Part shown: positions 7,414-36,553 of the stretch, one piece after another
How positions within the stretch are numbered: the stretch's first letter is position 1
How the letters are laid out: each line of letters starts with the position of its first letter
NCBI GenBank assembly: GCA_035489715.1
Contig: DATHAP010000160.1
Span: 1-38,377 of the forward strand
Origin: Actinomycetes bacterium
GTDB lineage: Bacteria; Actinomycetota; Actinomycetes; JACCUZ01
Length of the DNA: 38,377 bases
Direction: 5' to 3'
Program-made: the position numbers and the translations under genes
Notes under the pieces: generated by a model
The model's input: the letters and a program-made list of their open reading frames with translations, nothing else
What the model was told of the DNA's origin: nothing
Databases searched by the model: none

Positions 7414-8750
7414 CGTGCGTCCTCCGTGGGCAGGGCCTCCGCCGCGGCGCGGGCGGCGGCGGGGAGCGCGTCGACGACCCGGCCGACGGCCTCGTCGTCG
7501 TGCGCGGCGGACAGGAACCAGGACTCGAACGCCGACGGCGGCAGGTAGACGCCGCGGTCGAGCATCGCGTGGAAGAACGCGGCGAAGCGGAAGACGTCCT
7601 GCCGCTTCGCCGACTCGTAGTCCGTCACCGGTGCGCCGGCCGACGACTCGTCGCTGAAGAAGACGGAGAACATGCTGCCCGCGTGCTGCACCCGGTGCGC
7701 AACGCCGGCCGTCGTCAGGGCGTCACCGACCAGTGCCGACAGCTCGGCGGCCACCCGGTCGACCCGCGCGTAGACGTCCGCGTCCGCCCCGCGCAGGGTG
7801 GCCATCCCGGCGGCGGTGGCCACCGGGTTACCGGACAGGGTCCCGGCCTGGTAGACCGGCCCGGCCGGCGCCAGCCGCGACATGACGTCGGCGCGGCCGC
7901 CGAAGGCTGCGGCCGGGAAGCCACCGCCCATCACCTTGCCGAACGTCATGAGGTCCGGCCGCACGCCCTCGAGCCCGAACCACCCGGCCGGCGAGACGCG
8001 GAAGCCGGTCATCACCTCGTCGCTGACGAACAGCGCGCCGTTGTCCTGACACAGCTCGGCCAGCCCGGCGTTGAACCCGGGCTCCGGCGGGACGACGCCC
8101 ATGTTGCCGGCGGCCGCCTCGGTGATGACCGCGGCGACGTCCCCGTCGTACGTCGCGAAGGCGGTCTCGACGGCGGCCAGGTCGTTGTACGGAACGACGA
8201 CGGTGTCCGCGGCCGACGCTCCCGTGACGCCAGGCGTGTCCGGCAGGCCGAGCGTCGCGACGCCCGACCCGGCCGCGGCGAGCAGCGAGTCGACATGGCC
8301 GTGGTAGCAGCCGGCGAACTTCACGACCTTGCCGCGACCGGTGAAGCCACGGGCCAGCCGGATCGCCGACATGGTCGCCTCGGTGCCGCTGGACACCAGC
8401 CGCACCTGCTCGACCGGCTCGACCCGGGCCACGATCTCCTCGGCGAGCGCGACCTCGCCCTCGGTCGGCGTGCCGAACGACGTGCCGCGGGCGACTGCTG
8501 CCTGCACGGCGTCGACGACCGCGGGGTGCGCGTGGCCGAGCAGCAGCGGCCCCCACGAGCAGACCAGGTCGACGTACTCGCGACCGTCGGCGTCGACGAG
8601 GTAGGGGCCCCGGCCGGCCACCATGAACCGCGGGGTGCCGCCGACGGCGCGGAAGGCGCGGACCGGTGAGTTGACGCCGCCAGGCGTGACTGCCTTCGCG
8701 CGGGCGAGCAGGGCCTCCGACGCGGGCGCCGGCGGGAGCGGTGCCGTCAC
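7410..8750 (-). CDS. hemL: glutamate-1-semialdehyde 2,1-aminomutase
   Basis: A 446-residue class III PLP enzyme that converts glutamate-1-semialdehyde to 5-aminolevulinate, the second step of the C5 heme route. The PLP lysine is K272 in [20 protein letters not shown]. Family-specific segments are [18 protein letters not shown] near the start, [33 protein letters not shown] and [10 protein letters not shown]. Length matches the family. GTG at 8750 is chosen: it overlaps the hemB stop as GTGA. The long open frame further upstream is the shadow of hemB and encodes arginine-rich, non-protein-like sequence. Together with hemA in the same run it shows that this organism makes ALA from glutamyl-tRNA. 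Confidence 0.97.
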
Positions 8751-9766
8751 GCGCCGACCCTCCGCAGCAGGCCGGCCGCCTCGACCGCCCAGTAGGTCAG
8801 CACGATGCCGGCCCCAGCGCGGCGGACCGAGGTCAGCGTCTCGAGGATCGTCCGGTCGCGGTCCAGCCAGCCGTTGGCGAAGGCCGCCTCGGCCATCGCC
8901 ATCTCCCCGGACACCTGGTAGGCCGCGACCGGGACACCCAGCCGGGCGCCCTCGTCGGCGACCCGGCGCACCACGTCGAGGTAGGGCAGCGCGGGCTTCA
9001 CCATGACGATGTCGGCGCCCTCGGCCACGTCGAGGGCGAGCTCGCGCAGCGCCTCGTCGAGGTTGGCCGGATCCTGCTGGTACGTCCGACGGTCGCCCTG
9101 CAGGGTCGACTCCACGGCCTCGCGGAACGGGCCGTAGAAGGCCGACGCGTACTTCGCGGTGTAGGCGAGCAGGACGGTGTCGACCAGCCGGTCGCCATCC
9201 AGAGCGGCTCGCACGACACCGACCTGGCCGTCCATCATCCCCGAGAGCCCGAGCACCTGGGCGCCGGCGGCGGCCTGCGCCAGGCCCATCTCGGAGTAGC
9301 GCACCAGGGTGGCGTCGTTGTCCACGGACCCGTCGGCAGCGAGGACGCCGCAGTGCCCGTGGTCGGTGAACTCGTCGAGGCACAGGTCGGACATGACGAC
9401 CGTGCCGTCGCCCACCTCGGCGACCACGTCGCGGATCGCGACGTTGAGGACGCCGTCGTCGTCGGTCCCGCCGGTGCCCGTCGCGTCCTTCGTCTCCGGG
9501 ACGCCGAAGAGCATCAGCCCGCCGACCCCGGCCTGCACCGCCTCGGCCGCGGCCTTGCGCAGCGAGTCGCGCGAGTGCTGGACCACGCCGGGCATCGTCG
9601 AGATCGGCGCCGGCTCGGCCAGCCCCTCCCGGACGAAGAGCGGCAGCACCAGGTCGCCGGGCGACACCCGGGTCTGCGCGACCAGCGAGCGCAGGGCAGC
9701 GGTCCGCCGCAGCCGGCGGGGGCGTCCCGTCGGGAACTGCGCGAGCGGGCCCGTGCCGGTCGGCAT
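8747..9766 (-). CDS. hemB: delta-aminolevulinic acid dehydratase (porphobilinogen synthase)
   Basis: 339 residues. It condenses two 5-aminolevulinate molecules to porphobilinogen. Schiff-base lysines are K205 ([17 protein letters not shown]) and K257 ([13 protein letters not shown]). The metal loop reads [16 protein letters not shown] at residues 127-142. Compared with the Zn-type loop that carries three cysteines, the middle cysteine is replaced by Asp131, while Cys129 and Cys139 remain. This suggests altered or Mg-assisted metal use, as in many actinobacterial and plant-type enzymes. It starts 2 nt after the hemD stop and overlaps hemL by 4 nt. Identity is certain; the metal requirement is inference. 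Confidence 0.97.
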
Positions 9767-9768
9767 CG

Positions 9769-11427
9769 TCAGGTGGCCTTCCGGCGGGCCGTCGGGCGTT
9801 TCTGCGAGGGCCGCAGCACCGGCTCACCGGCGGCCACCGCGGCCGACCGGGCCGAGGCGCCGTACTCGGCGAGCGCGGTGGCGAGCTCGGCCACCGACGG
9901 GTGCGGGGCGAGGACGTCGACGCGCAGCCCGTGCTCCTCCGCCGTCTTGGCGGTGGCCGGGCCGATGCAGGCGATCACCGTCGACGAGTGCGGCTTGCCG
10001 GCGATGCCGACCAGGTTGCGCACGGTGGACGACGAGGTGAAGACCACCGCGTCGTAGCCGCCGGTCTTGATCGCCTCGCGGATAGGGGCGGCAGGCGGGG
10101 CGGCTCGCACGGTGCGGTAGGCGGTCACGTCGTCGACCTCCCAGCCGCGCTCGACCAGGCCGGCGACGAGGTTCTCGGTCGCGATGTCGGCGCGCGGCAG
10201 GAAGACCCGGTCGATCGGGTCGAAGACGGCGTCGAAGGGCGGCCAGTCCTCCAGGAGACCGGCGGCCGACTGCTCGCCGCTGGGCACCAGGTCGGGCTTG
10301 ATGCCCCAGGCGAGCAGGTCGCCGGCGGTCTGCTCGCCGACGGCCGCCACCTTGATGCCGGCGAAGGCCCGGGCGTCGAGGCCGTACTCCTCGAACCGCT
10401 CGCGCACCGCCTTGACCGCGTTGCGTGAGGTGAAGGCGACCCACTCGTAGCGGCCGGTCACCAGGCCCTTGATCGCCCGCTCCATCTGCTGCGGCGTGCG
10501 CGGCGGCTCGACAGCGATGGTCGGCACCTCCTCGGGCACGGCGCCGTGGGTGCGCAGCCTCTCGGCCAGAGCGCCGGCCTGCTCCTTGGTGCGCGGCACC
10601 AGGACCCGCCAGCCGAAGAGCGGCTTGGTCTCGAACCACGACAGCACCTCGCGGGAGCCGACCGTGTCGCCGACGACGGTGACGGTCGGCGGCGCGAGCT
10701 TGGCATCCTTGACGTCCGCGGCGACGCGCTCGAGCGTCGAGACGACGGTGCGCTGGCCGGTCGTCGTGCCCTGCTCGATCATCGCGACCGGCGTCTCCGG
10801 GGCTCGACCGGCGGCCATCAGCGCCTTGGCGGCGTCGCCGATGACCTGGGTCGCCGACAGCAGCACGAGGGTGGCGGAGCCGGCGCCGACGACCGACCAG
10901 TCGACGGTGCCCTCGGCGACGTTGACCACCCGGACCTCGCGGTGCTTGGCCGAGGTGAGGGGGATGCCGGCGTAGGCAGGGACGGCGCTCACCGAGGAGA
11001 CGCCGGGGACGACCTCGAACGGGATGCCGGCCTTGGCGCAGCCGGCGGCCTCCTCGGAGCCGGTGGCGTAGAGGAACGGGTCGCCGTCGAGCAGCCGCAC
11101 CACCGAGCCGCCGGACTTGGCGGCCTTGACCACCAGGCGGGCCCGCACGGCGTGGCTGAGCGGCTGGCCGTCGTCGCCGAGCGAGCCGTCGACGACCTCG
11201 ACGTCCGGGCGGCAGAAGCGGCGGACGAAGGCCTCGTCCTGCGACTCGGTCACGACGACGTCGGCGCGCGCGAGCAGCTCGACGGCGCGCACGGTGAGCA
11301 GCTCGGGGTCACCGGGCCCGGCGCCCACGAACGCGACGCAGCCCAGCACCGGCGACGGCTTCGTCGCCTTGGACACCTTGGTGACCTTCGTCTTCTCAGC
11401 GGAGGTCTTCTTCTTGGGGGCGGTCAC
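9769..11427 (-). CDS. hemD: fused uroporphyrinogen-III C-methyltransferase (CobA domain) / uroporphyrinogen-III synthase (HemD)
   Basis: 552 residues in two domains. After a Lys-rich tail (residues 1-25), the tetrapyrrole methylase domain runs from about 30 to 265. It contains [16 protein letters not shown], the SAM site [15 protein letters not shown] and [21 protein letters not shown]. The HemD domain (about 270-520) contains [69 protein letters not shown] and [17 protein letters not shown]. One protein could therefore cyclise hydroxymethylbilane to uroporphyrinogen III and methylate it towards siroheme or cobalamin. In the methylase half, the segment after LARADVVV reads TESQDEAFV instead of the usual D-x-L-V catalytic stretch, so methylase activity is less certain. 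A short basic tail follows the HemD domain. It overlaps hemC by 4 nt. Confidence 0.93.
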
Positions 11428-12359
11428 TGAACGCGCTCCAACATCAGGTCAGCCGCCCCCTCGGCGAGCAGCTCGGTCGCAAGACCACGACCGATCCGCG
11501 CCGCCTCGTCGAGGGGTCCGGTGGCGGACAGCCGGACACTCGCGGAGCCGTCGACAGCGCTGACGACGGCCCGGAGGTACAGCTGCATGACGTGCTCGTC
11601 GGGCTCGGGCTCGGCTGCTTCCCCGTAGGCACCCACGGGGGCCGAGCAGCCGGCTTCGAGCTCGGCGAGCAGGGTTCGCTCGGCGGTCACGGCGAGCCGG
11701 GTCACGGCGTCGTCGAGGCTGCCGAGCAGCTCGGCGGTGGCGTTGTCGCCGGAGCGGCACTCCACCGCCAACGCCCCCTGGCCGGGGGCGGGAAGCATCT
11801 GGAGAGGATCGAGCACCTCGGTCACGGTGTCCAATCGACCGAGGCGGGCCAGGCCCGCGCGGGCCAGCAGGACGGCGTCCAGCCTGCCCTCGGAGACCAT
11901 GCGCAGGCGGGTGTCGACGTTGCCCCGCACGTCGACGACCTCGAGCCCGAGGCCGAGCGCGCGCAGCTGGGCGGCCCGCCGCGGCGCGCCGGTGCCGACC
12001 TTGGCGCCGGCCGGCAGCTCGCCCAGGGTGAGCCCGTCGCGGGCGACCAGCGCGTCGCGGGGGTCCTCCCGGGGCGGGACCGCCGCGACCAGCACCTCGT
12101 CGGGCTGGCTGGTCGGCAGGTCCTTGAGCGAGTGGACCGCGGCATCGACCTCCCCGGCGGCGAGCGCCTCTCGCAGCGCGCCGACGAAGACGCCGGTGCC
12201 GCCGATCTGGGTGAGTGCGGCCCGCGAGGTGTCGCCGAGTGTGGTGACGGTGACCAGCTCGACCTGGCGGCCGGTGCGCGCGGTCAGCTCGGCCGCGACC
12301 TGCCCGGCCTGAGCCGTCGCCAGGGCGCTGCCACGGGTGCCGATGCGCAGGGCGGTCAT
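11424..12359 (-). CDS. hemC: porphobilinogen deaminase (hydroxymethylbilane synthase)
   Basis: 311 residues. It polymerises four porphobilinogens into hydroxymethylbilane. The dipyrromethane cofactor cysteine is C238 in [18 protein letters not shown], and the catalytic aspartate is D80 in [10 protein letters not shown]. Other family blocks are [18 protein letters not shown] at the N-terminus, [27 protein letters not shown] and [15 protein letters not shown]. All expected catalytic residues are present and length is normal. Both junctions in the run are 4-nt ATGA/GTGA overlaps (hemA upstream, cobA-hemD downstream), supporting translational coupling. Confidence 0.98.
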
Positions 12360-21577: not shown

Positions 21578-22375
21578 TCAGTCCAGACCGGCGGCGGCGA
21601 GCAGGTAGGCGGTGACCGGCTGGTAGAGGTGCGGCGGCACGTTGTCGTCGAGCGGCACCGCCACGGCGACCTTGCCCTCCTTCTCGCCGACGAACAGCGC
21701 CGGGTCGTTCGAGTCGGCGAAGCCCACCGAGGTGACGCCGGCCTCGCCGGCACCCCCCACCCAGCCGTGGTCGCCCACCACGAGGTCCGGCAGGTCAACC
21801 CCCTCGTCGCGCAGCGCCGCGAGGATGCCCTCCATCGGCCGGGCCGAGTGCGTGTGGTTGAGCTCGCCGCGGGTGCTGACCATCGCGACGTCGGCGACAT
21901 AGCGGATCCGCCGGGTGACCCGGCCGACGCGGGTGGTGGTCTCGTAGCCGAAGCCGGCCGCCGGCGTCAGCACCTCGGTGCCTGCTCGCCGCAGCCCGGC
22001 GGCCACCGCGAGGTGCACCGGGAGCAGGCCCGCCGGGTGCCCGGTGGCGACGACCACCCGCGCTCCCGGCCGGGCCGCCGACCGCAGGTGGCCGGCCATC
22101 CGGTCCAGCCCGTCGATCGTCAGGTCCGGGTCGATCCGGTCCGGTCCGCGCAGGTAGCCGGCGTCCGGCGACACCCCCACCCGCTCGGCCATCAGGGCCA
22201 GGATGTCGCCGAGCCCCCACGACCCGGCGAAGGTGAGCCCGAACATCGCCTTCGACACCCCGGCCGCCAGGAAGCCGTACTTCAGCAGGTTGTCCTCGCG
22301 CGAGGTCGCCACGTCACCCGCGATGCGCGACTCGACGAGGTGGGCGCCCAGTGCTGCCCGGTCCGGTGCCGTCAC
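21578..22375 (-). CDS. conserved actinobacterial protein, often annotated as phosphatase; function uncertain
   Basis: 265 residues, no signal peptide or membrane span. Visible blocks are LVESRIAGDVATSREDNLLKYGFLAAG near the N-terminus, GARVVVATGHPAGLLPVHLAVAAGLRRAGTEVLTPAAG in the middle, and DLVVGDHGWVGGAGEAGVTSVGFADSNDPALFVGEKEGKVAVAVPLDDN near the C-terminus. The last contains several conserved Asp, Gly and Asn residues. I recognise it as a conserved neighbour of acuC in actinobacteria that databases tend to call phosphatase, but I see no classical phosphatase motif and do not assert that activity. GTG at 22375 overlaps the acuC stop as GTGA, so it is co-translated with acuC. Confidence 0.8.
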   Translation of the reverse strand: MTAPDRAALGAHLVESRIAGDVATSREDNLLKYGFLAAGVSKAMFGLTFAGSWGLGDILALMAERVGVSPDAGYLRGPDRIDPDLTIDGLDRMAGHLRSAARPGARVVVATGHPAGLLPVHLAVAAGLRRAGTEVLTPAAGFGYETTTRVGRVTRRIRYVADVAMVSTRGELNHTHSARPMEGILAALRDEGVDLPDLVVGDHGWVGGAGEAGVTSVGFADSNDPALFVGEKEGKVAVAVPLDDNVPPHLYQPVTAYLLAAAGLD

Positions 22376-23559
22376 AGTGCGAGCAGCCCGCCGAGGCCGT
22401 GCGACGGGAAGACCGCCCGCTGGGTGGCCAGGACCGCGCGGTCCACCGGGTCGGCCGGGTCGAACCCGTCGTGCCAGTCGGCCCAGGTGGGCGTGCGTCC
22501 GTCGGTCATCCGCTGCGGGGGCGTCAGGCCGTAGCGCTCGACGACGTACTCCCGCCATCCCTCCGGCACGTCGGTCGCCGGGTCCAGCGGCGTGCCGGCG
22601 GCCACCGCCAGCAGGTGGGTCCAGGCTCGCGGCACCACTTGGGCGAGCTCGTAACCGCCGCCCCCACACGCGACCCACCGGCCGCCGGCGTGCTCGTGCG
22701 CGAGGTCGTGCAGAGCGAGGTACGACCGGCGCTGGCCGTCGACGGTCAGGCCGAGGTGGGCCAGCGGGTCGAGCAGGTGGCTGTCGCAGCCGTGCTGGGT
22801 CACGAGCACCTGGGGGCGGAACTCGGCGAGCAGCGGCGGCACCACCGCGTGGAAGGCGCGCAGCCAGCCGGGGTCGATGGTGCCGGGCGGCAGCGCGACG
22901 TTGACGGCCGAGCCGTCGGCGGCCGGGCCGCCCACGTCGTCCGGGAAGCCGGTGCCGGGGAAGAGATAGCGCCCGCTCTCGTGCAGTGACACCGTCAGCA
23001 CCCGCGGCTCGTCCCAGAACGCGCGCTCGACGCCGTCGCCGTGGTGCACGTCGACGTCGACGTAGGCGACCCGCTCGGCGCCCTGCTCGAGCAGCCAGGC
23101 GATCGCCACGGCGGGGTCGTTGTAGACGCAGAAGCCGCTGGCCGCGCCGGGCATCGCGTGGTGCAGGCCGCCGGCGACGTTGACCGCGTGCTCGACCTCG
23201 CCGGCCCACACCGCGCGGGCGGCCTCGACGGTCGCGCCGACCACAAGTGCCGAGGCCTCGTGCATGTCCCGGAACGCCGGGGTGTCGGCGCTGCCGATGC
23301 CGTGCGAGAGGTCGGGGTGCGACGGGTCGGCGCCGGCCTTCTTGACCGCCGCGACGTAGTCCGCGTCGTGCACAAGACCGATCAGGTCGTCCGTCGCCGG
23401 CTCGGGCCGCACCATGCGGACGGCCGGCAGGTCGAGCACGCCCAGGTCGCGGGCCAGCCGCATCGTGAGGTCGAGCCGCAGCGGGTTGAGCGGGTGCTCG
23501 GGGCCGAGGTCGTAGCCGAGGACGGCCTCGTCCCACGGCACCAGCACCGTCCCGCTCAT
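22372..23559 (-). CDS. acuC: acetoin utilization protein AcuC, class I histone-deacetylase fold
   Basis: 395 residues. The zinc-dependent deacetylase motifs are all present: GGLHHAMPGAASGFCVYND (paired histidines 133-134), VAYVDVDVHHGDGVERAFW (zinc ligands D170 and H172), TQHGCDSHLLDPLAHL (third ligand D259) and CGGGGYEL (transition-state tyrosine). AcuC-type enzymes remove acetyl groups from lysines, in Bacillus from acetyl-CoA synthetase AcsA. ATG at 23559 is used; TAGCGT lies 7 nt upstream. It is followed by the conserved unknown gene through a 4-nt overlap. Confidence 0.95.
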   Translation of the reverse strand: MSGTVLVPWDEAVLGYDLGPEHPLNPLRLDLTMRLARDLGVLDLPAVRMVRPEPATDDLIGLVHDADYVAAVKKAGADPSHPDLSHGIGSADTPAFRDMHEASALVVGATVEAARAVWAGEVEHAVNVAGGLHHAMPGAASGFCVYNDPAVAIAWLLEQGAERVAYVDVDVHHGDGVERAFWDEPRVLTVSLHESGRYLFPGTGFPDDVGGPAADGSAVNVALPPGTIDPGWLRAFHAVVPPLLAEFRPQVLVTQHGCDSHLLDPLAHLGLTVDGQRRSYLALHDLAHEHAGGRWVACGGGGYELAQVVPRAWTHLLAVAAGTPLDPATDVPEGWREYVVERYGLTPPQRMTDGRTPTWADWHDGFDPADPVDRAVLATQRAVFPSHGLGGLLAL

Positions 23560-23566
23560 GCTCGTC

Positions 23567-23572
23567 ACGCTA
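23567..23572 (-). promoter_or_regulatory. -10-like box TAGCGT, leaderless context, acuC
   Basis: TAGCGT on the minus strand ends 7 nt before the acuC ATG. There is no Shine-Dalgarno in the remaining space. It lies in the 28-bp gap after the permease stop. Confidence 0.45.
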
Positions 23573-23587
23573 CCCGGGGCCACCTGG

Positions 23588-24772
23588 TCACTCGGTGCGG
23601 AGGGCGACCACCGGGTCCAGGCGTCCGGCCCGGCGGGCGGGTGCGACACCGAAGAAGATGCCGACCGCGGCCGACACCCCGAAGGCGAGGACCGGTGACC
23701 ACCACGCGATGACCGCGGGGAGCGGCGACACCGAGCTCACCAGCAGCGAGGCGCCGACGCCGAGCCCGATCCCGATCAGCCCGCCGACGACGCAGAGCAG
23801 CACCGCCTCGATGAGGAACTGCAGCAGGATGTCGCGCTGCCTGGCGCCCAGCGCCTTGCGCAGCCCGATCTCGCGGGTCCGCTCCCGGACGCTGACCAGC
23901 ATGATGTTGGAGACCCCGACGCCACCGACGAGCAGCGAGATCGCGGCGATGGCGGCGAGCACGAGGGTGAGCAGGCTGAGGATGCGCCCGATGGTGCCGA
24001 GGATCTGGGTCTGCGTGACCGCCGAGAACTCCTCGCCCTGGTAGGTCTCCTTCAGCGCCGACACCAGCTGCGGCCTCAGCTCCTCGACCCGGTCAGCTGT
24101 CGGGGCCTTCACGGCGAGGGCGTCGATCCGGTCCACGCCGAAGAGCCGTTGCGCGGCGGTCACCGGGATGTGCACCTCGGAGTCGCGGTCGACCCCGAAG
24201 GTCGACCCGACCTTCTCGAAGACGCCGATGACCCGGAACCGCACCCCGGCGATCGTCACCTGGCGGCCCAGCGGGTCCACGTCGCCGAACACCTTGGTCA
24301 CGACCGAGCTGCCGAGCACGGCGACGCGGCGGCGGGTGTCGACGTCGGAGGCGGTGATGTACTCGCCGCGGGCCAGCCGCCGGTCGAAGACGTTGGGCAC
24401 GTTCTCGTTGACGCCGTTGACGGTGACGAAGGCCGTACGTCGCCCGACCCCGACCGTCTCGCCCGACGCGACCGACACCGCGACCCGGTCGCGGTCCCCG
24501 ACGACCCGGCCGAGCGTCTCGACGTCGTCGAGGGTCAGCCGGCTCACCGACGGCGCGGAGCCGAACTCGAACTTGCCCGGCACCACGATGATGATGTTGG
24601 AGCCGAGGCCCTCGACCTGCTGCTCGACCTCCTGCTTGGCGCCGGCGCCGAGCGCCACCAGGATCACCACCGCGGCGACGCCGATGACGACGCCCAGCAT
24701 GGTCAGCGCGCTGCGCAGCCGGTTGGCGCGCAACGCGTCCAGCGCGACCCGGAACGCCTCGCCGGTCCTCAC
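23588..24772 (-). CDS. MacB/FtsX-type ABC transporter permease
   Basis: 394 residues with four membrane spans: one near residues 20-42 (LTMLGVVIGVAAVVILVALGAG) and three at the C-terminus (from about 265, 320 and 350). A large extracytoplasmic MacB periplasmic-core domain (about residues 50-260) lies between. The conserved cytosolic loop VRERTREIGLRKALGARQRDILLQFLIEA is the signature of FtsX-like permeases. With the ATPase and adaptor lipoprotein encoded upstream it forms a MacAB-like machine, which in Gram-positives usually exports peptides, lipids or drugs, or drives mechanotransmission rather than transport. The start overlaps the ATPase stop by 4 nt. Confidence 0.94.
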   Translation of the reverse strand: MRTGEAFRVALDALRANRLRSALTMLGVVIGVAAVVILVALGAGAKQEVEQQVEGLGSNIIIVVPGKFEFGSAPSVSRLTLDDVETLGRVVGDRDRVAVSVASGETVGVGRRTAFVTVNGVNENVPNVFDRRLARGEYITASDVDTRRRVAVLGSSVVTKVFGDVDPLGRQVTIAGVRFRVIGVFEKVGSTFGVDRDSEVHIPVTAAQRLFGVDRIDALAVKAPTADRVEELRPQLVSALKETYQGEEFSAVTQTQILGTIGRILSLLTLVLAAIAAISLLVGGVGVSNIMLVSVRERTREIGLRKALGARQRDILLQFLIEAVLLCVVGGLIGIGLGVGASLLVSSVSPLPAVIAWWSPVLAFGVSAAVGIFFGVAPARRAGRLDPVVALRTE

Positions 24773-26856: not shown

Positions 26857-27564
26857 TCATCGTAGGTTCGCCCGGAGCCGCCCGAGCAGGCCGCGGCCCT
26901 GGACCCAGCCACGCCGGCGGCGGACGTCCTCGCACAGGTCGAGCAGCCGGTAGTCCTTGTCGTAGTAGCGACGCAGTGCCGCGCGGGCTGTGTCGTCGAT
27001 CTGGTCGCTGGACCAGTCCCCGGTGCGGTTCGCGGTCACCGGGTCGCGCGGCAGCTCGATGTAGTCCGGCACCTGGAGGATCCGCTGGAGGTTCTGCCAG
27101 TCGGCGTCCAGCGTCTCCTGCCGGCCGATGTACACGACCCGGTCGAGCCGGGGACGCAGGTCGGCCGGGCCACCCACGGTCCATGACTGGGACCGCAGGT
27201 GCCGGATCCGGCGCATCGCACGCTGGGCAGCGTGAGCCGTCTCCGGGTCAGGTGACTCCAGCGACACGGCCAGCTCCTGCGCCGAGGAGAACCGGGCGAA
27301 CGCCTCGGCCTCCGCGTCCGTCCAGCGGAAGTGGTAGCGCGGCGCACCGCGCCGCTGACGAGCCGTGAAGCCGCTGAGGAAGCGGTCCACCGGGTCGCGG
27401 ACGAAGAAGAACACGTGCTCCCGCGGCGGCAGCTCGGTCCACCGACGACGGTGGGGGTGCTCCACCAGCGGGCCGTACGGGGTGTCGGGCCAGCCGGCGT
27501 CCCGCAGGGCGTACTTGAGCGCCGACCCTCCGGTCTTGCCGACGTGCAGGAAGTGGAGTGCCAC
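26857..27564 (-). CDS. sulfotransferase family protein (sulfotransferase-2-like)
   Basis: 235 residues. The PAPS 5'-phosphosulfate loop is LHFLHVGKTGGSALKYAL (residues 3-20), and the 3'-phosphate site is FFFVRDPVDRFLSGFTARQR. The protein should transfer sulfate from PAPS to a hydroxyl or amino group of a carbohydrate or small molecule. The acceptor is unknown. It differs from the two other sulfotransferases in the window, which carry the CPRSGTT type of loop. It begins 6 nt after the cold-shock gene and ends 4 nt before the transporter adaptor, so it may be co-transcribed with both. GTG at 27564 has no clear Shine-Dalgarno, which suggests translation by reinitiation. Confidence 0.85.
   Translation of the reverse strand: MALHFLHVGKTGGSALKYALRDAGWPDTPYGPLVEHPHRRRWTELPPREHVFFFVRDPVDRFLSGFTARQRRGAPRYHFRWTDAEAEAFARFSSAQELAVSLESPDPETAHAAQRAMRRIRHLRSQSWTVGGPADLRPRLDRVVYIGRQETLDADWQNLQRILQVPDYIELPRDPVTANRTGDWSSDQIDDTARAALRRYYDKDYRLLDLCEDVRRRRGWVQGRGLLGRLRANLR
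26859..26864 (-). promoter_or_regulatory. -10-like box TACGAT, leaderless context, adaptor lipoprotein
   Basis: TACGAT on the minus strand lies inside the last codons of the sulfotransferase gene and ends 6 nt before the adaptor ATG at 26852. Confidence 0.45.
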
Positions 27565-27570
27565 CGCCGG

Positions 27571-27954
27571 CTAGGCCTCGATGTCGTCCGCGACCGCGCG
27601 CAGCACGGCGGCGGTCTTGCGGGCCACCTGCCGGTCCGGGTAGCGGCCGCGGCGCAGGCCGTTGCCGACCCCGTCGAGCAGCTTGATCAGGTCCTCGACG
27701 ATGACCGCCATGTCGTCGACCGGCTTGCGGCTGCTCGCGGTCACCGAGGGGATCGGGTCCAGCACGGTGACGGTGAGCGCCTGCTCGCCGCGCTTGCCGT
27801 CGACGATGCCGAACTCGACCCGGCTGCCCGGCTTGAGCGCCGGGACACCGGCGGGCAGCGCGGACTGGTGGACGAAGACGTCACCGCCGTCGTCGCGGGA
27901 AAGGAAGCCGAAGCCCTTCTCGGCGTCGTACCACTTCACCTTGCCGGTCGGCAC
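27571..27954 (-). CDS. cold-shock domain protein with C-terminal extension (CspB-like)
   Basis: 127 residues. The nucleic acid-binding OB fold is at residues 1-67, with KWYDAEKGFGFLSRDDGGDVFVHQSAL containing RNP1 (KGFGFL) and RNP2 (VFVHQS). A further 60 residues form a predicted helical extension (KPVDDMAVIVEDLIKLLDGVGNGLRRGRYPDRQVARKTAAVLRAVADDIEA). Typical bacterial cold-shock proteins stop at about 67 residues; the longer form is known in actinobacteria such as the mycobacterial CspB group. The GTG at 27954 is preceded by AGAGG at about 7 nt. The message has a leader of about 60 nt from the TAGGCT box at 28024-28029. Confidence 0.92.
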   Translation of the reverse strand: MPTGKVKWYDAEKGFGFLSRDDGGDVFVHQSALPAGVPALKPGSRVEFGIVDGKRGEQALTVTVLDPIPSVTASSRKPVDDMAVIVEDLIKLLDGVGNGLRRGRYPDRQVARKTAAVLRAVADDIEA

Positions 27955-28061: not shown

Positions 28062-29516
28062 TCAGCGGTAGGGCTCGGGGTCGGCCAGCAGGTCGTTCAT
28101 CGACCCAGAACGGAACGGCTCGACCGACACGGCCTCGAACCCGGCGGCCAGGACGGCCGCAGCGACCCCGCCCTCGGCGGCGACGGACTCGACCAGCCCG
28201 GCGTCGACCTCCAGCCGGGCGGAGTCGCCGAGGTCGCGGACCCGCAGGTCACGCACCGGCAGGCCGGCGGTGGCCAGCGCCTCGCGCGCCGCCGCCTCGG
28301 CGCGGTCGACCCGCACCAGCCGGGCCGGGGTGATCTCGATGCCGTAGGCGACCCGGCTGGACAGGCAGGCGGCCGCCGGCTTGTCCCAGGTGGGCAGCCC
28401 CCAGCGACGACTGGCCTCGCGCACCTGGGCCTTGGTCAGCCCGGCGTCCAGCAGCGGCGTGACCGCCGCCCGCTCCGCTGCGGCCCGGATGCCCGGCCGG
28501 AAGCCGGCGACGGCGTCGTCGGCATTGGTGCCGGTCGCGACATGGGCCAGACCGTGCTCGGCGGCCAGCGGGCCGAGGACGTCGAGCAGCTCGGCCTTGC
28601 AGAAGTAGCAGCGGTCGCCGTCGTTGGCGCGGTAGCCGTCGCGGTCCATCTCGCGGGTGGTCGGCCGCAGGTGGCGCACGCCGAGGTCCGCGCTGAACGC
28701 GGCCGCCGCGTCGAGCTCGTGGCCGGGCAGGCTGGCGCTGACGGCGGTGGCAGCAGCGACGTCGTCAGCACCCAGGCTGCGTACGGCCGCAGCGAGCAGC
28801 AGCGCCGAGTCCGCACCGCCGGAGAACGCGACGAGCACCGAGCCCAGCTCGCGCAACCGCTCGTCGAGGGCCGCCAGCCGCAGCTCGAGGACGTGCTCGT
28901 CGAGCCACTCCGCGAAGCCGTGCAGGTCCTCCAGGACCACGTCGGCGCCGGCCGCGCGCAGCTCGTCGGCGCTCACCGGGCCGGTAGCGACCCCGACGCT
29001 GAGCGCATCGGACGCGCGGGCGCCGGCGACGTCGGCCACGTGGTCGCCGACATAGACCGTCGCACCGTGCTCGCGCAGCGCCTCGCCCTTGGCCGGTCCC
29101 CACCGCCACCCGACCACCTCGTCCGCCTCGATGCCGAGGTGCTCGAGGTGCAGTCGGGCGTTGGGCTCGTACTTCGCGGTCACCACGACGACCCGGCCGC
29201 CGTGTCGGTGCACGGCGGCGACAGCCTCGCGCGCGCCGCCCAGCAACTCGGTCGGCGTGATCGCCAGGTCGGGGTAGAGCGCGCGGAACCGGTCGGCCAT
29301 CGGGGCCACCTGGTCGGCCGGGAACCAGTAGGCGAGCTCCTCGTCCAGCGGCGGTCCGAGCCGGCTCACGGCCGCCGCGCTGTCGATGTGCACGCCGGTC
29401 TCGGCCGAGAGGGCGTCGAGCGCCACCGCGATCCCCGGCCGCGAGTCGATCAGGGTCATGTCGAGGTCGAACCCGACGACCAGCGGCGGGGCGACGTGAG
29501 GGGACGGGCGCGACAC
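28062..29516 (-). CDS. larE: fusion of HAD hydrolase and LarE-type ATP-dependent sulfur transferase
   Basis: 484 residues, one uninterrupted frame. Residues 1-205 are a HAD phosphatase: nucleophile loop VGFDLDMTLIDS (D17, D19), VVVVTAKYEPNA (motif II), a lysine in GPAKGEAL and GDHVADVAGA (motif IV). Residues 212-484 are LarE-like: ATP-pyrophosphatase loop FSGGADSALLL (232-237), NDGDRCYFCKAELLD with C303 and C306, TGTNADD, and KPAAACLSSRVAYG with C384. LarE adenylates and sulfurates the pyridinium carboxylate precursor of the nickel-pincer nucleotide. C384 lies where the sacrificial cysteine is expected; the extra CxxC pattern matches LarE forms proposed to use an Fe-S cluster. No larB or larC is in the window. 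GTG at 29516 has TACGCT 6 nt upstream. The HAD domain's substrate is unknown. Confidence 0.88.
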   Translation of the reverse strand: MSRPSPHVAPPLVVGFDLDMTLIDSRPGIAVALDALSAETGVHIDSAAAVSRLGPPLDEELAYWFPADQVAPMADRFRALYPDLAITPTELLGGAREAVAAVHRHGGRVVVVTAKYEPNARLHLEHLGIEADEVVGWRWGPAKGEALREHGATVYVGDHVADVAGARASDALSVGVATGPVSADELRAAGADVVLEDLHGFAEWLDEHVLELRLAALDERLRELGSVLVAFSGGADSALLLAAAVRSLGADDVAAATAVSASLPGHELDAAAAFSADLGVRHLRPTTREMDRDGYRANDGDRCYFCKAELLDVLGPLAAEHGLAHVATGTNADDAVAGFRPGIRAAAERAAVTPLLDAGLTKAQVREASRRWGLPTWDKPAAACLSSRVAYGIEITPARLVRVDRAEAAAREALATAGLPVRDLRVRDLGDSARLEVDAGLVESVAAEGGVAAAVLAAGFEAVSVEPFRSGSMNDLLADPEPYR

Positions 29517-30340: not shown

Positions 30341-31648
30341 ATGCCTGCGCAGAGCACCCGCCCGCCGATGCCGCGCAACGCGAGGCTGATGCTGGTCGGC
30401 GTCGCGATCGACGCGCTCGGCGTCGGGCTGGTGCTGCCGTTCCTCGTGATCTACCTGCACGAGGTCCGCGACATCTCGCTGCCGACCGTCGGCGTGCTGG
30501 CCGCGCTGCCCGCCGTCGTGGCGCTCGTGCTGGTCGGGCCGATCGGCATCCTGATCGACCGCCTCGGCCCGCGACGGGTGCAGATCGCCGCGGTGGTCTG
30601 CTCGGGCCTGGGTGCGCTGGCCCTGGCGGGGGCGGAGGGGGTCGGCGTGGCCGCCCTGGCGATGGTGCTGACCGGTGTCGGCCACGCCGCGTTCTGGCCG
30701 GCCAACCAGTCGCTGGTCGCCGCGGTGCTGCCCAGCGAGCAGCGCGCAAGGTTCTTCGGCGTCTCGTTCACGCTGCTCAACGCGGGCATCGGCATCGGCG
30801 GAGTCATCGGTGCCCTCTACGTGTCCGTCGACGATCCCTCGACGTTCACGACGGTCTATGTGCTCGACGCGGTCAGCTTCCTGGGGCCGTTGCTCGTGCT
30901 GTCCTGGCCCCTGCGCCACGTCGGCGGCCCGGTCGCGGTGCCCGACCACGCGGCGGACGGCGGGTCCTACCGCGAGGTGCTGGGCGACCCGGTGTTCCGC
31001 CGGCTGCTGGCCGTGGTCTTCTTCTCGGCGTTCGTCGGCTACGGGCAGCTCGAGGCCGGCTGGACGGCGTACAGCCGGGTGGTCGCCGAGGTGTCGACCC
31101 GCACGATCGGCATCGCCTTCGCCGTCAACACCGCGGTGATCGTGCTGCTGCAGCTGGTCGTGCTCAAGGCGATCGACGGACGCCGACGGACCCGGGTGCT
31201 CGGCCTTTTGGCGATCGTCTGGGCGGTGGCCTGGCTGGTCATGGGGCTGGCCGGCACGGTGCCCGGCACCACCGCGGCCGCCGTCCTCGTCGTGGTGTCG
31301 ATCGGTGTCTTCGCCCTGGGTGAGACGCTGCTCTCCCCGGTCGCGCCGGCCATCACCAACGACCTGGCCTCCGAGCACCTGCGTGGGCGCTACAACGCGG
31401 CGGGCTCGCTGGCCTTCCAGGTGGCGGCGGTCGCCGCCCCCACGTCGGCCGGCTTCCTCATCGGCCACGACATGCCCGTGACGTACGTCCTCACGCTGCT
31501 GCTCGGGTCGGCGGCCTTCGGGGTGCTCGCGCTGCGCATGGAGCCCGTGCTGCCGCCCGCGGCCAACGGGCTGCACGTCGACGCGGCCGAGCTCGGCGCC
31601 ACCGAGGGGCTCACGGCCGGCGCGCCAGCTCCTGCTGCCTCGTCGTGA
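30341..31648 (+). CDS. MFS transporter
   Basis: 435 residues with about twelve hydrophobic spans. The loop between spans 2 and 3 reads GPIGILIDRLGPRRVQIAAVV, the MFS signature G-x-x-x-D-x-x-G-x-R-R. Span 5 (LLNAGIGIGGVIGALYVS) resembles the motif C region of drug-proton antiporters. ATG at 30341 is preceded by GGAAGG. The C-terminus (residues about 410-435) is a soluble tail. The substrate is unknown; a drug, sugar or metabolite exporter is possible. Its 3' end overlaps the convergent sulfotransferase gene by 38 bp. It is not obviously part of an operon. Confidence 0.92.
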   Translation: MPAQSTRPPMPRNARLMLVGVAIDALGVGLVLPFLVIYLHEVRDISLPTVGVLAALPAVVALVLVGPIGILIDRLGPRRVQIAAVVCSGLGALALAGAEGVGVAALAMVLTGVGHAAFWPANQSLVAAVLPSEQRARFFGVSFTLLNAGIGIGGVIGALYVSVDDPSTFTTVYVLDAVSFLGPLLVLSWPLRHVGGPVAVPDHAADGGSYREVLGDPVFRRLLAVVFFSAFVGYGQLEAGWTAYSRVVAEVSTRTIGIAFAVNTAVIVLLQLVVLKAIDGRRRTRVLGLLAIVWAVAWLVMGLAGTVPGTTAAAVLVVVSIGVFALGETLLSPVAPAITNDLASEHLRGRYNAAGSLAFQVAAVAAPTSAGFLIGHDMPVTYVLTLLLGSAAFGVLALRMEPVLPPAANGLHVDAAELGATEGLTAGAPAPAASS

Positions 31649-32615
31649 GCCGGGCCGCGACCGGCTGGGTGGACCGGGCCGCGTCCCGGTCCTCCTCGGC
31701 CCAGCGCCGCCGTGTCGAGACGTGCCGGGCGAGGGCCGCTGCGACGTACCTGCCGAGGCGCACCGGGCCGGGGACGCGGCCGGCACCGCTGGGCCGGTAG
31801 CCCCACCGGGCCATCTTGCGACGCAGGACCAGCTCGATCAGGCCGATCTCCCACGGCTCGAGCTGGGAGCGCCACGCCTCGACCCGCGCCGTCGACACGT
31901 CGGAGCCCAGGTTGGCGTGCCACGTCTTCGACTCGGGCACGACGTGGCGGACCCGGGCCGGCTCGAGCATGGCGTCGTCGAAGTCCTCCTCGAGGAACTC
32001 GCACAGGTCGGTGAGCTCACGGCGCGGGTCGGCGACGAGCGACTCGTAGCGGACGACGTGGTAGGCGTCGGCCGGCAGCCGGCGGCGGTTGCGTCGCAGG
32101 CAGCACTCGGCGTGCGACCAGGTGGCCATCGCGCCGATGCTGTCGAAGGGCCACCACGGCATCCGCTTGAGCGAGGCGACGGTGGCCCGCGGGTCGCGGA
32201 CGCAGTGCACGATCTGCGCGTCCGGGAAGAGCCGCAGGAGGACGTCGACCTCCTGGTAGTAGAGGGGGCGCTTGTCGCCCCACCGCGCCTTGCCCTGGGT
32301 GCGGGCGAACTCGGCGAAGACCGTGCCGAAGGCCGATCCCAGCGTCGCCGGCGCGGCCAGGATCGCCCGCCGGGTGGTCACCCGGTCCAGACCGAGGTGG
32401 GCCAGCCGGGACCCGCGGGTGCAGGACCGCGCCAGCCGGCGGCGCTGCTTGCGCGTCGTCAGGTCACCGAAGGTCGCCCGCTTGCGCCACAGGCGGGTGA
32501 GGAACCGGGTCTCGGGCGGCATCGCCAGCCGCGGGTGCGCGTGGATCATCAGCGAGAGCAGCGTGGTGCCCGACCGGGGGCACCCGACCACGAAGACCGG
32601 GCGGTCGCTGCTCAC
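31611..32615 (-). CDS. PAPS-dependent sulfotransferase (sulfotransferase-3 type)
   Basis: 334 residues. The 5'-phosphosulfate loop is FVVGCPRSGTTLLSLMIHAHPRLAMPPETRFL (residues 8-39). The 3'-phosphate site is IVHCVRDPRATVASLKRMPWWP near residue 150. YHVVRYESLVADPRRELTDLCEFLEEDFD is the typical C-terminal part of the fold. The protein is a clear paralogue of the gene at 35465-36553 over the CPRSGTT, PPETRF, GDK/RP-Y, VRD and RYE(D/S)LV blocks. The acceptor is unknown; sulfated glycolipids or natural products are possibilities. The GTG at 32615 has TAGCCT 7 nt upstream, suggesting a leaderless message. Its last 13 codons overlap the end of the MFS gene on the other strand. Confidence 0.88.
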   Translation of the reverse strand: MSSDRPVFVVGCPRSGTTLLSLMIHAHPRLAMPPETRFLTRLWRKRATFGDLTTRKQRRRLARSCTRGSRLAHLGLDRVTTRRAILAAPATLGSAFGTVFAEFARTQGKARWGDKRPLYYQEVDVLLRLFPDAQIVHCVRDPRATVASLKRMPWWPFDSIGAMATWSHAECCLRRNRRRLPADAYHVVRYESLVADPRRELTDLCEFLEEDFDDAMLEPARVRHVVPESKTWHANLGSDVSTARVEAWRSQLEPWEIGLIELVLRRKMARWGYRPSGAGRVPGPVRLGRYVAAALARHVSTRRRWAEEDRDAARSTQPVAARLTTRQQELARRP

Positions 32616-32628: not shown

Positions 32629-32658
32629 GACGCCCCGGCCAGTGGGGCCGGCGCGGCG

Positions 32659-32664
32659 TACCGT
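32659..32664 (+). promoter_or_regulatory. -10-like box TACCGT, leaderless context, helicase-domain gene
   Basis: TACCGT ends 7 nt before the ATG at 32672. No Shine-Dalgarno lies between them. Confidence 0.5.
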
Positions 32665-32671
32665 TGTGCGG

Positions 32672-35077
32672 ATGCCCACCCCCGGCCTGAGCGGCCGCCC
32701 GACGCTCGCGGGCGACCTGCGGTCGCGCGACGACGAGTCGCTCGCAGCGCTGCTCGCCGACCGGCCGGACCTCCTCGCGCCGGTGCCGACCGACCTCGGG
32801 TCCCTCGCGGCGCGCGCCACCACTAGGCCGTCCGTCCAGCGCGCCCTGGACCAGCTGGACCGCTTCACCCTGCAGGTGCTCGACGTGGTCGCGGTGTTGC
32901 CCGAGCCGTCGACCGACGCCGACGTCGAGGCGGCGCTCGGAGCCGACCCGACGCGTGCGCTGGCGACCCTGCACCGGCAGGCGCTGGTCTTCCGTGACGA
33001 GGACGGCGGGCTGCTGGTGCCGAGGACCGTGCTCGAGGTCGTGGGGACGCCGGCTGGTCTCGGCCCACCGGCCGACCAGGCGCTGCTCGCGTACGGGCCG
33101 CGGCGGCTGGCGGCGCTGGCGACCGACCTGGGGCTGCCCGCGAGCGGCGACCCGATGCAGCTGGTGGCCTCGGTCGCCGGCCTGCTCGGCGACCCCGACC
33201 AGCTGACCGGCCTGCTGGACCGGACGCACGAGCAGGCACCGGCCGCGAGCGAGGCGCTGGAGCGGATGGTGTGGGGGCCCCCGACCGGGCGGCTCGAGGG
33301 CGCGCACCGCGACGTCGACGCGACGACGGCCACCAGCCCGGTCGACTGGCTGCTCGCCCACGGGCTGCTGGTCGCGACCGACGCCCGGACCGTCGTGCTG
33401 CCCCGCGAGGTCGCGCTGCACCTGCGCGGAGGCCAGGTGCACCGCGAGGTGCAGCCCACGGAGCCGCCCCTCGCCACCACGCCTGCCGACGCGGCCCGGG
33501 GCGAGCGTGGCGCGGCCGGCGCTGCCGCGACCGTGCTGCGCCAGGTCGAGGACCTGCTCGACCTCTGGGCCAGCGACCCGCCCCGGGTGCTGCGCGCTGG
33601 TGGCACCGGGGTGCGCGACCGGGCCCGCACCGCGTCGGCGCTCGACGTGGACGAGCCCACGCTGGTCGTGCTGCTCGAGGTCGCCCACGCCGCGGGCCTG
33701 CTCGCGGCCGGCGACGACGGCGAGGACGAGGTGTGGCTGCCGACGGCAGGCTTCGACGACTGGCTCGACACGCCGCCGGCGGTCCGGTGGCTGGTGCTCG
33801 CCGAGGCGTGGCGCGACACCACCCGGGTGCCCGGCCTGGCCGTCGACGCCACGACCAAGGACCGGGCCGGCAAGCCGCTGGCCCCGCTCGGTCCGGAGCT
33901 GGACCGCACCCTGGCGCCGCTGGTGCGGTCGGCGGTCCTGGCCGAGCTCGCCTCGGTGCCGGCCGGCCAGGTCAGCACGGTCGGTTCGGTCACCGACCGG
34001 CTGCGCTGGCGGGCGCCCCGGCGCGGCGGGCGGCTGCAGGACGACCTGGTGGGCTGGACCGTGCGCGAGGCCGACCTGCTCGGGCTGTCGGCCGGCGGCG
34101 CCCTGTCGGAGGCCGGCCGGGCGTTCGCGACGGGTGACCGCCCGGCGGCGACCGCCGCGCTGTCGGCCGCGCTGCCGCCGCCGCTGGACCACGTGCTGCT
34201 GCAGGCCGACCTGACCGCCGTGGCGCCCGGCCCGCTCGAGGGCGAGCTGGCCCGTGCCCTCCGTCTGGTGTCGGACGTCGAGTCGACCGGCGGCGCGACG
34301 GTCTACCGGTTCTCGGCCGGCAGCGTGCGACGGGCGTTCGACGCGGGGTGGACGGCGGGCGACGTGCTCGAGCTGCTGGGCCGGCACTCCCGGACGCCGG
34401 TGCCGCAGCCGCTGACCTACCTGGTCGAGGATGTCGCGCGGCGGCACGGCCGGGTCCGGGTCGGGGCAGCGGCGTCGTTCGTGCGGTGCGACGACGAGGC
34501 GACGCTCGGCGAGCTCCTCGGTGACCGCCGGTGCGCGGCGCTGCGGCTGCGCCGCCTGGCGCCGACCGTGCTGTCGGCCCAGGCGCCGCCCGACGTCGTC
34601 CTGAGCCGGCTGCGCGAGATCGGCTACGCCCCGGCGGCCGAGTCGCCCGACGGTGAGCTCGTCGTGCGCCGGCCGGAGGCCCGCCGCGCGGCCGGCGGGT
34701 CACGCCGCCCGGCCGCCCGCGTCGTGCTGTCCGCACCGCAGCCGCAGCCGGCGCTGCTCACCGCCGCGGTCCGGGCCCTGCGCGCCGGCGAGCGGGTGGC
34801 GCGGGTCGGCGAGGTCAGCACGGGCGCCGGGTCGTCGCTGGTCAGCCGCCCGGCCGCCGACGTGCTGGCGATGCTGACCGCCGCTGCGGCGTCCGGCGAG
34901 TCGCTGCTCATCGGCTACGTCGACGCCGAGGGCCGCGGCAGCCGTCGGGTGGTCGAGCCGCTGGCGGTCGAAGGGGGCCAGGTGAGCGCGTACGACCACC
35001 TGCGTGGAGCGGTGCGCACCTTCGCGGTGCACCGCATCACCGGCATCACCGCGCTGGACGAGCAGCCCGCGCCCTGA
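32672..35077 (+). CDS. helicase-associated (XPB/Ssl2-like N-terminal, PF13625-type) domain protein
   Basis: 801 residues. The N-terminus LRSRDDESLAALLADRPDLLAPVPTDLGSLAARATTRPSVQRALDQLDRFTLQVLDVVAVL is typical of large actinobacterial proteins annotated as helicase C-terminal or XPB/Ssl2-like. The segment HVLLQADLTAVAPGPLEGELARALRLVSDVESTGGATVYRFSAGSVRRAFDAGWT (about 505-560) is the conserved PF13625 block. The C-terminus ESLLIGYVDAEGRGSRRVVEPLAVEGGQVSAYDHLRGAVRTFAVHRITGI resembles the WYL-like beta-barrel found at the end of these proteins. I see no Walker A or DEAD motif, so it is not itself a helicase. In related genomes it is usually next to a genuine XPB-type helicase gene; none follows here. 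Confidence 0.88.
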   Translation: MPTPGLSGRPTLAGDLRSRDDESLAALLADRPDLLAPVPTDLGSLAARATTRPSVQRALDQLDRFTLQVLDVVAVLPEPSTDADVEAALGADPTRALATLHRQALVFRDEDGGLLVPRTVLEVVGTPAGLGPPADQALLAYGPRRLAALATDLGLPASGDPMQLVASVAGLLGDPDQLTGLLDRTHEQAPAASEALERMVWGPPTGRLEGAHRDVDATTATSPVDWLLAHGLLVATDARTVVLPREVALHLRGGQVHREVQPTEPPLATTPADAARGERGAAGAAATVLRQVEDLLDLWASDPPRVLRAGGTGVRDRARTASALDVDEPTLVVLLEVAHAAGLLAAGDDGEDEVWLPTAGFDDWLDTPPAVRWLVLAEAWRDTTRVPGLAVDATTKDRAGKPLAPLGPELDRTLAPLVRSAVLAELASVPAGQVSTVGSVTDRLRWRAPRRGGRLQDDLVGWTVREADLLGLSAGGALSEAGRAFATGDRPAATAALSAALPPPLDHVLLQADLTAVAPGPLEGELARALRLVSDVESTGGATVYRFSAGSVRRAFDAGWTAGDVLELLGRHSRTPVPQPLTYLVEDVARRHGRVRVGAAASFVRCDDEATLGELLGDRRCAALRLRRLAPTVLSAQAPPDVVLSRLREIGYAPAAESPDGELVVRRPEARRAAGGSRRPAARVVLSAPQPQPALLTAAVRALRAGERVARVGEVSTGAGSSLVSRPAADVLAMLTAAAASGESLLIGYVDAEGRGSRRVVEPLAVEGGQVSAYDHLRGAVRTFAVHRITGITALDEQPAP

Positions 35078-35427: not shown

Positions 35428-35467
35428 CGGCTCAGCGACGGCTCAGCGACGGCTCAGCGACGGCTCA
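35428..35467. repeat. 11-bp tandem repeat, three full units plus a partial fourth
   Basis: CGGCTCAGCGA occurs at 35428-35438, 35439-35449 and 35450-35460, followed by a partial CGGCTCA at 35461-35467. The partial copy contains the stop codon of the sulfotransferase gene on the minus strand. The unit is not a multiple of three and has no dyad symmetry. Confidence 0.9.
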
Positions 35468-36553
35468 CCCGCGGTCGACGACCGGGCCGCGCAGCTTCGC
35501 CGACAACCGGTCTGCGGTGGCCAGCACCCAGGTGCGCAGCCGCAGCGAGGTGATCGCCAGCCGGTAGCGGGCCAGGTCGGTCGCCGGCACGTGCCCCACC
35601 TGCTCGGGCACCTCGTAGCCGTGGGCGCGCAGCCGAGAGCCGGCGACCCGTTCGACCAGCGCCAGCTCCCGGTCGGTGAGCAGCTCCCCGTAGGTGCCGA
35701 CCCGACGGGGGCCGATGTAGGTGGCCGTGCGCCAGTGCCACTTCTTGCGCTGCCGCCGGGGCAGCTGCTTGGCCAGCTTCTGCGGCCGCAGCATGTCCTC
35801 GCTGAACTCCTCGCCGAGGAAGTCGCACAGGCCGCGCAGCACGGTCGGGTAGTCCTGCACCAGGTCCTCGTACCGCACCTCCACGAACGACCGGTCCGGC
35901 AGCCGTCGCGCGGCGCGGGTGCCGCAGTCGATCGAGTGGACCCAGATCGCGGTGGCCGCGATGTGGCCGCGGGTGAACCACTTCATCCGCTTGAGTGAGG
36001 CCACGCAGTCGCGGCCGTCGCGGACCAGGTGGACGAACTGCGCCTCCGGCCACATCGTGCGCAGCATGTCGATGTTGCGGAAGTAGGTCGGCTGCTTGTC
36101 GCCCCAGCGCGGCTTCCCGTGCTTCTGGGCGTAGGTCCGGTAGACCGCGCCGAACGCCGACCCGATCGTGGGGTCGCCGTCGATGACGGCCTGGCGGACC
36201 TGCTCACGGTCGACCCTCAGGTGGTTGAACTTGCGGCCCTTGCGCGCCACGATCTCGGCGGCCAGCCGGGCCCGGTTGTCGTCGTCGCGCAGGTCGCCGA
36301 ACCTCAGCCGCTGGCGCCAGATCGGCACCAGGAAGCGGGTCTCGGGCGGGATGGCCAGCCGCGGGTGCGACGAGAGCATCAGCGTCAGCAGTGTGGTGCC
36401 GGACCGGGGGCAGCCGAGGATGAACACCGGCTCCGTCCAGCGGGTCGGCCCGGACAGCGCCGCGGGCACGACCCGGGCGGACGCGGTGGCAGGAGCCCGC
36501 GGCCGCTCGGGTACCGGTGACAGCGTGGGCTGGTCGGGCATGGGGTGGTCCAT
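35465..36553 (-). CDS. PAPS-dependent sulfotransferase (sulfotransferase-3 type)
   Basis: 362 residues. The PAPS loop is FILGCPRSGTTLLTLMLSSHPRLAIPPETRFLVPIW (about residues 43-78). The 3'-phosphate site is FVHLVRDGRDCVASLKRMKWF, and VEVRYEDLVQDYPTVLRGLCDFLGEEF forms the following helix. It is a paralogue of the gene at 31611-32615 but has a proline/alanine-rich 40-residue N-terminal extension and different C-terminal third. The extension is not a signal peptide, so it should act in the cytosol. The start is ATG 36553 (ATG 36541 is possible); TACCGT lies 9 nt upstream. The stop lies in an 11-bp tandem repeat. It is divergent from the histidine kinase gene with 60 bp between starts. Confidence 0.88.
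   Translation of the reverse strand: MDHPMPDQPTLSPVPERPRAPATASARVVPAALSGPTRWTEPVFILGCPRSGTTLLTLMLSSHPRLAIPPETRFLVPIWRQRLRFGDLRDDDNRARLAAEIVARKGRKFNHLRVDREQVRQAVIDGDPTIGSAFGAVYRTYAQKHGKPRWGDKQPTYFRNIDMLRTMWPEAQFVHLVRDGRDCVASLKRMKWFTRGHIAATAIWVHSIDCGTRAARRLPDRSFVEVRYEDLVQDYPTVLRGLCDFLGEEFSEDMLRPQKLAKQLPRRQRKKWHWRTATYIGPRRVGTYGELLTDRELALVERVAGSRLRAHGYEVPEQVGHVPATDLARYRLAITSLRLRTWVLATADRLSAKLRGPVVDRG

Follow-up and report, generated by a model that had tools for sequence, protein, structure and literature searches.

Does a phosphatase that shares a polypeptide with LarE also share its reaction, or do two independent enzymes occupy one chain? The question is raised by a single open reading frame in the window analysed here, a 38,377-nucleotide stretch of DNA from an actinomycete genome, in which an intact HAD phosphatase domain and a complete LarE domain are fused in frame (Table 1). 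An earlier note on this DNA had described the frame in these terms, naming no strand, with D17 and D19 as the catalytic aspartates, and the Pfam and TIGR00268 matches within the one frame bear it out. The product is best read, with a probability of roughly two in three, as a bifunctional protein of two autonomous enzymes, derived from a conserved cluster of HAD, LarE and cold-shock-domain protein (Csp) genes.

Table 1. Features of the fusion locus, with positions in the window
Feature	Position	Strand	Remark
HAD-LarE fusion protein, 484 aa, GTG start	28062..29516	minus	One open frame; same architecture in 8/8 family genomes and dozens more
HAD phosphatase domain, residues 13-205	28902..29480	minus	Pfam PF12710/PF13419/PF00702 above cut-off
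HAD motif I, D17-L-D19-M-T21	29454..29468	minus	D17, L18, D19, T21 invariant
Predicted single helix, residues 198-224, HAD end to LarE start	28845..28925	minus	AlphaFold2 model
LarE domain, residues 213-476	28089..28880	minus	TIGR00268; PDB LarE by sequence and by fold
PP-loop S232-GGAD-S237	28806..28823	minus	Invariant in alignment of 21 fusions
CxxC, C303 and C306	28599..28610	minus	Both invariant in 21-fusion alignment; CXXC-C motif of PMC9283937
Third cysteine C384	28365..28367	minus	Invariant in 21-fusion alignment
Cold-shock-domain protein (Csp), directly downstream	27571..27954	minus	PF00313; conserved neighbour of HAD, LarE or both
Helicase_C_3/WYL protein, upstream, divergent	32642..35077	plus	PF13625 and PF13280; second conserved neighbour

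The LarE half scores 267.9 bits against NCBIfam TIGR00268 (cut-off 150), with residues 215-474 covering positions 4-259 of the 259 in the model. The solved LarE of L. plantarum, a sacrificial sulfur transferase (PDB 5udq), shares its fold and aligns over its whole length to fusion residues 212-478, and the phosphate-site residues Ser180, Arg212 and Arg214 of that enzyme (PMC9283937) correspond to S387, R425 and R427; unlike the fusion, however, the L. plantarum enzyme has a single sacrificial cysteine, with neither a CXXC nor a HAD domain. A fold search of the PDB with the AlphaFold2 model of the fusion also returned LarE as the top match, and since LarE alone appeared among the matches listed, this search is silent on the HAD half. 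Across an alignment of 21 diverse fusions the SGGxDS loop, C303, C306, C384, S387, R425 and R427 are invariant. C384 aligns one residue past the position of L. plantarum Cys176, and the same shift of the third cysteine is found in T. maritima LarE, where three cysteines bind a [4Fe-4S] cluster (PMC9283937). The T. maritima protein resembles the fusion further in its CXXC-C cysteines and PP-loop, but it has no HAD domain described and it has a fourth cysteine, Cys174, which adjoins the motif and is dispensable for the cluster (PMC9283937). We infer from the sequence that the LarE half of the fusion would likewise hold a [4Fe-4S] cluster. The earlier note had recognised the CxxC and the late cysteine as the set of [4Fe-4S]-type LarE (PMC9283937), and correctly so; because most LarE homologues have the CXXC-C motif (PMC9283937), this three-cysteine form is the majority and normal type rather than something special.

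The Pfam HAD, HAD_2 and Hydrolase models match the other half within residues 14-169, all above their cut-offs, and the HAD motif set is complete: DxDxT in motif I, T or S at position 113 in motif II, K143 in motif III, and D158 and D162 in motif IV. In motif I, D17, L18, D19 and T21 are invariant in 21 fused proteins and also among 19 fused, split and free HADs, and the catalytic set D17, D19, T21, K115, K143, D158 and D162 shows no variation whether the HAD is fused, split or free. Because the catalytic residues are the same in all three forms, the domain is very probably active. The earlier note had named loss of the active site in orthologues, coupled with a genome lacking larB and larC, as grounds against its proposal; the site proved conserved in every orthologue aligned. 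In its core motifs and in a cap insertion between motifs I and II, the half is like HADs of the phosphoglycolate phosphatase/PpaX type (TIGR01449, PRK13288; PDB 3mc1, 2ah5), but it is not an orthologue of these, since it reaches only 45.1 bits against the phosphoglycolate phosphatase model TIGR01449 (cut-off 180) and 22.4 bits against the pyrophosphatase PpaX model PRK13288 (cut-off 218). Phosphoglycolate phosphatase, PpaX and other known families were all rejected as names for it, every score being far under the cut-off. Free HADs from Streptomyces, Nocardioides and Frankia-like genomes, mostly 54-67% identical, have the same catalytic residues and occupy the same slot adjoining Csp, but without LarE attached. 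Structure prediction of one free HAD from its single sequence gave a pLDDT of 36.6 and an unusable model.

Structure prediction of the domain interface had been suggested as a check, and the AlphaFold2 model of the fusion (pTM 0.83; mean pLDDT 88.6, about 96-97 over most of residues 198-224) predicts one continuous helix spanning the joint. Among 297 Actinomycetes genomes (the class sample), HAD and LarE matches lie in one frame in 37, and the gap between them is 6-15 nt in 36 of these; the linker that connects the halves is short and almost constant. Both domains share one open reading frame at 65 loci. At the locus L097 from Nocardioides sp. B-3, the HAD-LarE gene is in three pieces, either through sequencing errors or as a young pseudogene.

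The search for HAD-LarE architectures and for co-occurrence with other lar genes, also suggested beforehand, found a recurrent fusion and a LarE that travels with LarC. In the class sample, with the HAD counted at E below 1e-20 and LarE as TIGR00268 matches at E 1e-35, LarE is present in 76 genomes, LarC in 73 and a fusion-type HAD in 131. LarE and LarC occur together in 70 genomes, LarE without LarC in 6, LarC without LarE in 3 and neither in 218 (Fisher p about 8e-57, n = 297). Because LarE tracks LarC almost perfectly (70/76), the LarE half very likely serves synthesis of the nickel-pincer nucleotide (NPN). The HAD and LarE co-occur slightly above chance (p 0.003, n = 297, by a statistic that ignores relatedness); 45 genomes have both, in one frame in 37, adjacent as separate, out-of-frame genes in 3, and apart in 5, and hence fused or adjacent in 40/45. 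The HAD is found without LarE in 86 genomes, none of which has LarC, and LarE without a fusion-type HAD in 31, of which 30 have LarC. Three genomes (G018, G040 of f12, and G099) have LarC above cut-off with no TIGR00268 match at E 1e-35, and a control Corynebacterium glutamicum genome has LarC with LarE not above cut-off.

LarC is present in 35 of the 40 fused or adjacent genomes. It is missing from the other five, namely the window's genome, G002 (in which larB is cut by a contig end), G006 and G064 (77-78% completeness), and G151 (93% complete, in about 850 contigs). All eight genomes of the window's family (G000-G007) carry the fusion. When 396 genomes of the phylum were sampled, the matches listed from outside the class were nearly all to LarE alone; one was to the HAD alone, and none spanned the full query. 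The HAD-LarE fusion is an old and common arrangement in actinobacteria. A literature search of incomplete coverage found no HAD-LarE fusions, and the arrangement may be undescribed so far; it is a new architecture variant within the known LarE family.

In the window's own genome (G000), larB, larC and larA were not found. In the family relatives larB and larC form a tandem flanked by PheA and by an SDR/ArcA pair (names read from the sequences of the flanking genes), away from the fusion locus. When the assembly was searched with PheA, larB, larC, SDR and ArcA, only weak SDR paralogues and one short weak ArcA match were recovered, and the LarB model found no PurE match either; completeness is nevertheless given as 98.5% despite the lack of a good match to this block. 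Because the whole conserved flanking block is missing and the relatives carry larB-larC elsewhere, the absence is apparently an assembly gap, which is the simplest reading; a real deletion of the entire PheA-larB-larC-SDR-ArcA block is conceivable. Loss of larB and larC alone was judged less likely, since PheA, SDR and ArcA are also without a good match. The earlier note had observed the absence of larB and larC, and for this assembly that observation stands, but its suggestion that LarE might therefore have a different substrate is weakened by the same findings. None of the eight family genomes gave a Lar_N (PF09861) match at E 1e-6, though five have LarC, and G007 gave only a weak match at E 1e-4. 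The NPN-using enzyme of the family may be something other than a recognised LarA, or a LarA too divergent to be matched. LarA-like Lar_N matches (about 81-115 bits) without LarC or LarE occur in G043, G090, G121, G161, G224, G233, G268 and G276 (f17 g40).

The two halves come apart in one genus of the sample (g44), which was matched to Nocardioides by identical sequences. Seven of its genomes are fused, all with LarC, and seven have only the HAD, all without LarC. The HAD is intact in six of the latter seven and stops close to the former junction; none of these six loci retains a LarE remnant, and at four of them Csp follows downstream. In the seventh, G135 (L162), the HAD frame is broken, by sequencing error or as a young pseudogene. 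In the HAD tree the HAD-only Nocardioides are nested among the fused ones, so that seven changes are needed, at least four of them forced by well-supported branches, and the HAD-only G287 groups with a fused Nocardioides with support of 99/92. The dN/dS of HAD-only pairs is about 0.2-0.4, a rough value given the extreme base composition, and the HAD-only copies are therefore still under selection. Conversely, LarE occurs with no adjoining HAD in Nocardioides luteus, N. albus and Nocardioides sp. YR527.

Where the available sequence extends far enough, Csp adjoins most of the loci, and the Helicase_C_3/WYL gene is seen at HAD-only and fused loci. The arrangements HAD-LarE-Csp, HAD-Csp and LarE-Csp share one chromosomal slot, often together with the Helicase_C_3/WYL gene, and in the Streptomyces loci a small unrelated frame separates the HAD from the Csp that follows it. 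The likeliest order of events, the direction of its first steps aside, is that adjacent genes of an old HAD-LarE-Csp cluster fused in frame and that either half was then lost repeatedly; the LarE tree has too little resolution to place the fusion in time. Near the fusion the window also encodes two sulfotransferase-family proteins (26857-27564 and 31611-32615, minus strand; PF03567, PF13469), and a third frame at 35465-36553 is sulfotransferase-like in appearance. Farther off, on the minus strand, lie a heme cluster of porphobilinogen synthase, a fused uroporphyrinogen methyltransferase/HemD and HemC (8747-12359) and a histone-deacetylase-fold protein (22372-23649; PF00850, 280 bits).

If the two halves are autonomous enzymes, then the LarE half would adenylylate the carboxylates of P2CMN and insert sulfide from its [4Fe-4S] cluster, as T. 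maritima LarE does, yielding P2TMN for NPN (family knowledge; PMC9283937, PMC11796402). The HAD half would be a general actinobacterial phosphatase, capped and phosphoglycolate-phosphatase/PpaX-like, with a small phosphoester outside the NPN route as its substrate, and what fusion would provide is joint expression in equal amounts, not a common reaction path. Because the HAD-only genomes lack LarC and the LarE-only genomes mostly have it, the HAD does not follow NPN synthesis. The same counts (86 and 30/31), together with the persistence of the Nocardioides HADs, tell against the proposals of the earlier note that the HAD acts on an NPN intermediate or is coupled to thiolation. Against autonomy stand the retention of the fusion across many families, the nearly constant joint and the continuous helix of the model, as well as the fused or adjacent arrangement in 40/45 genomes with both genes and the slight excess of co-occurrence (p 0.003, relatedness ignored). 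Long-kept fusions often indicate a functional link. A second, NPN-related job for the fused HAD, such as removal of PPi or of a stray pyridinium nucleotide beside the LarE site, would make the protein a coupled thiolation-dephosphorylation enzyme of an as yet undescribed kind; this is unlikely.

Products of LarE could likewise be substrates for a general phosphatase. PPi and AMP are both set free by LarE (PMC11796402), and a HAD coupled to it might hydrolyse one of these after P2CMN adenylylation and so pull the reaction forward, an idea that gains from the weak relatives of the HAD, which include PpaX and an inorganic pyrophosphatase of the HAD type with a solved structure, as well as from the nearly fixed joint and predicted helix. 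It is nonetheless rather improbable, because the 31 LarE-only genomes manage without the HAD, the 86 others keep it without LarE or LarC, all scores for pyrophosphatase families fall far below cut-off, and the catalytic residues do not differ between fused and free forms. The HAD could instead strip the 5'-phosphate from pyridinium mononucleotides, either to repair intermediates that have been damaged or to keep the NPN pool in check; as mononucleotides, P2CMN and P2TMN both carry such a phosphate (PMC9283937, PMC11796402) and the HAD is of the small-phosphoester kind, but it persists where no NPN is made and a phosphatase against the protein's own product would be wasteful, so this role is distinctly doubtful. 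That the fused HAD is a catalytically dead scaffold aiding LarE assembly would suit the continuous helix of the model, but is very improbable given the invariance of all catalytic residues in the 21 diverse fusions. There is next to no chance that the joint is an assembly artefact, a possibility the earlier note had named, or a recent accident of one genome: the window's genome is assembled in 231 contigs and lacks at least one block, but the fusion recurs across family and class genomes (8/8 and 37/297) and in dozens of independent assemblies, some of them single-contig chromosomes, which excludes that candidate.

LarE with an extra phosphatase domain is thus an ordinary form in actinobacteria. 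The autonomous-enzyme reading also carries a caution, in that fusion is no proof of a shared pathway, since genomes without NPN genes still retain the phosphatase. The fused, split, HAD-only and LarE-only relatives are a ready comparison set for the role of the HAD, and the survey points to an actinobacterial family that has NPN genes but no recognised LarA.
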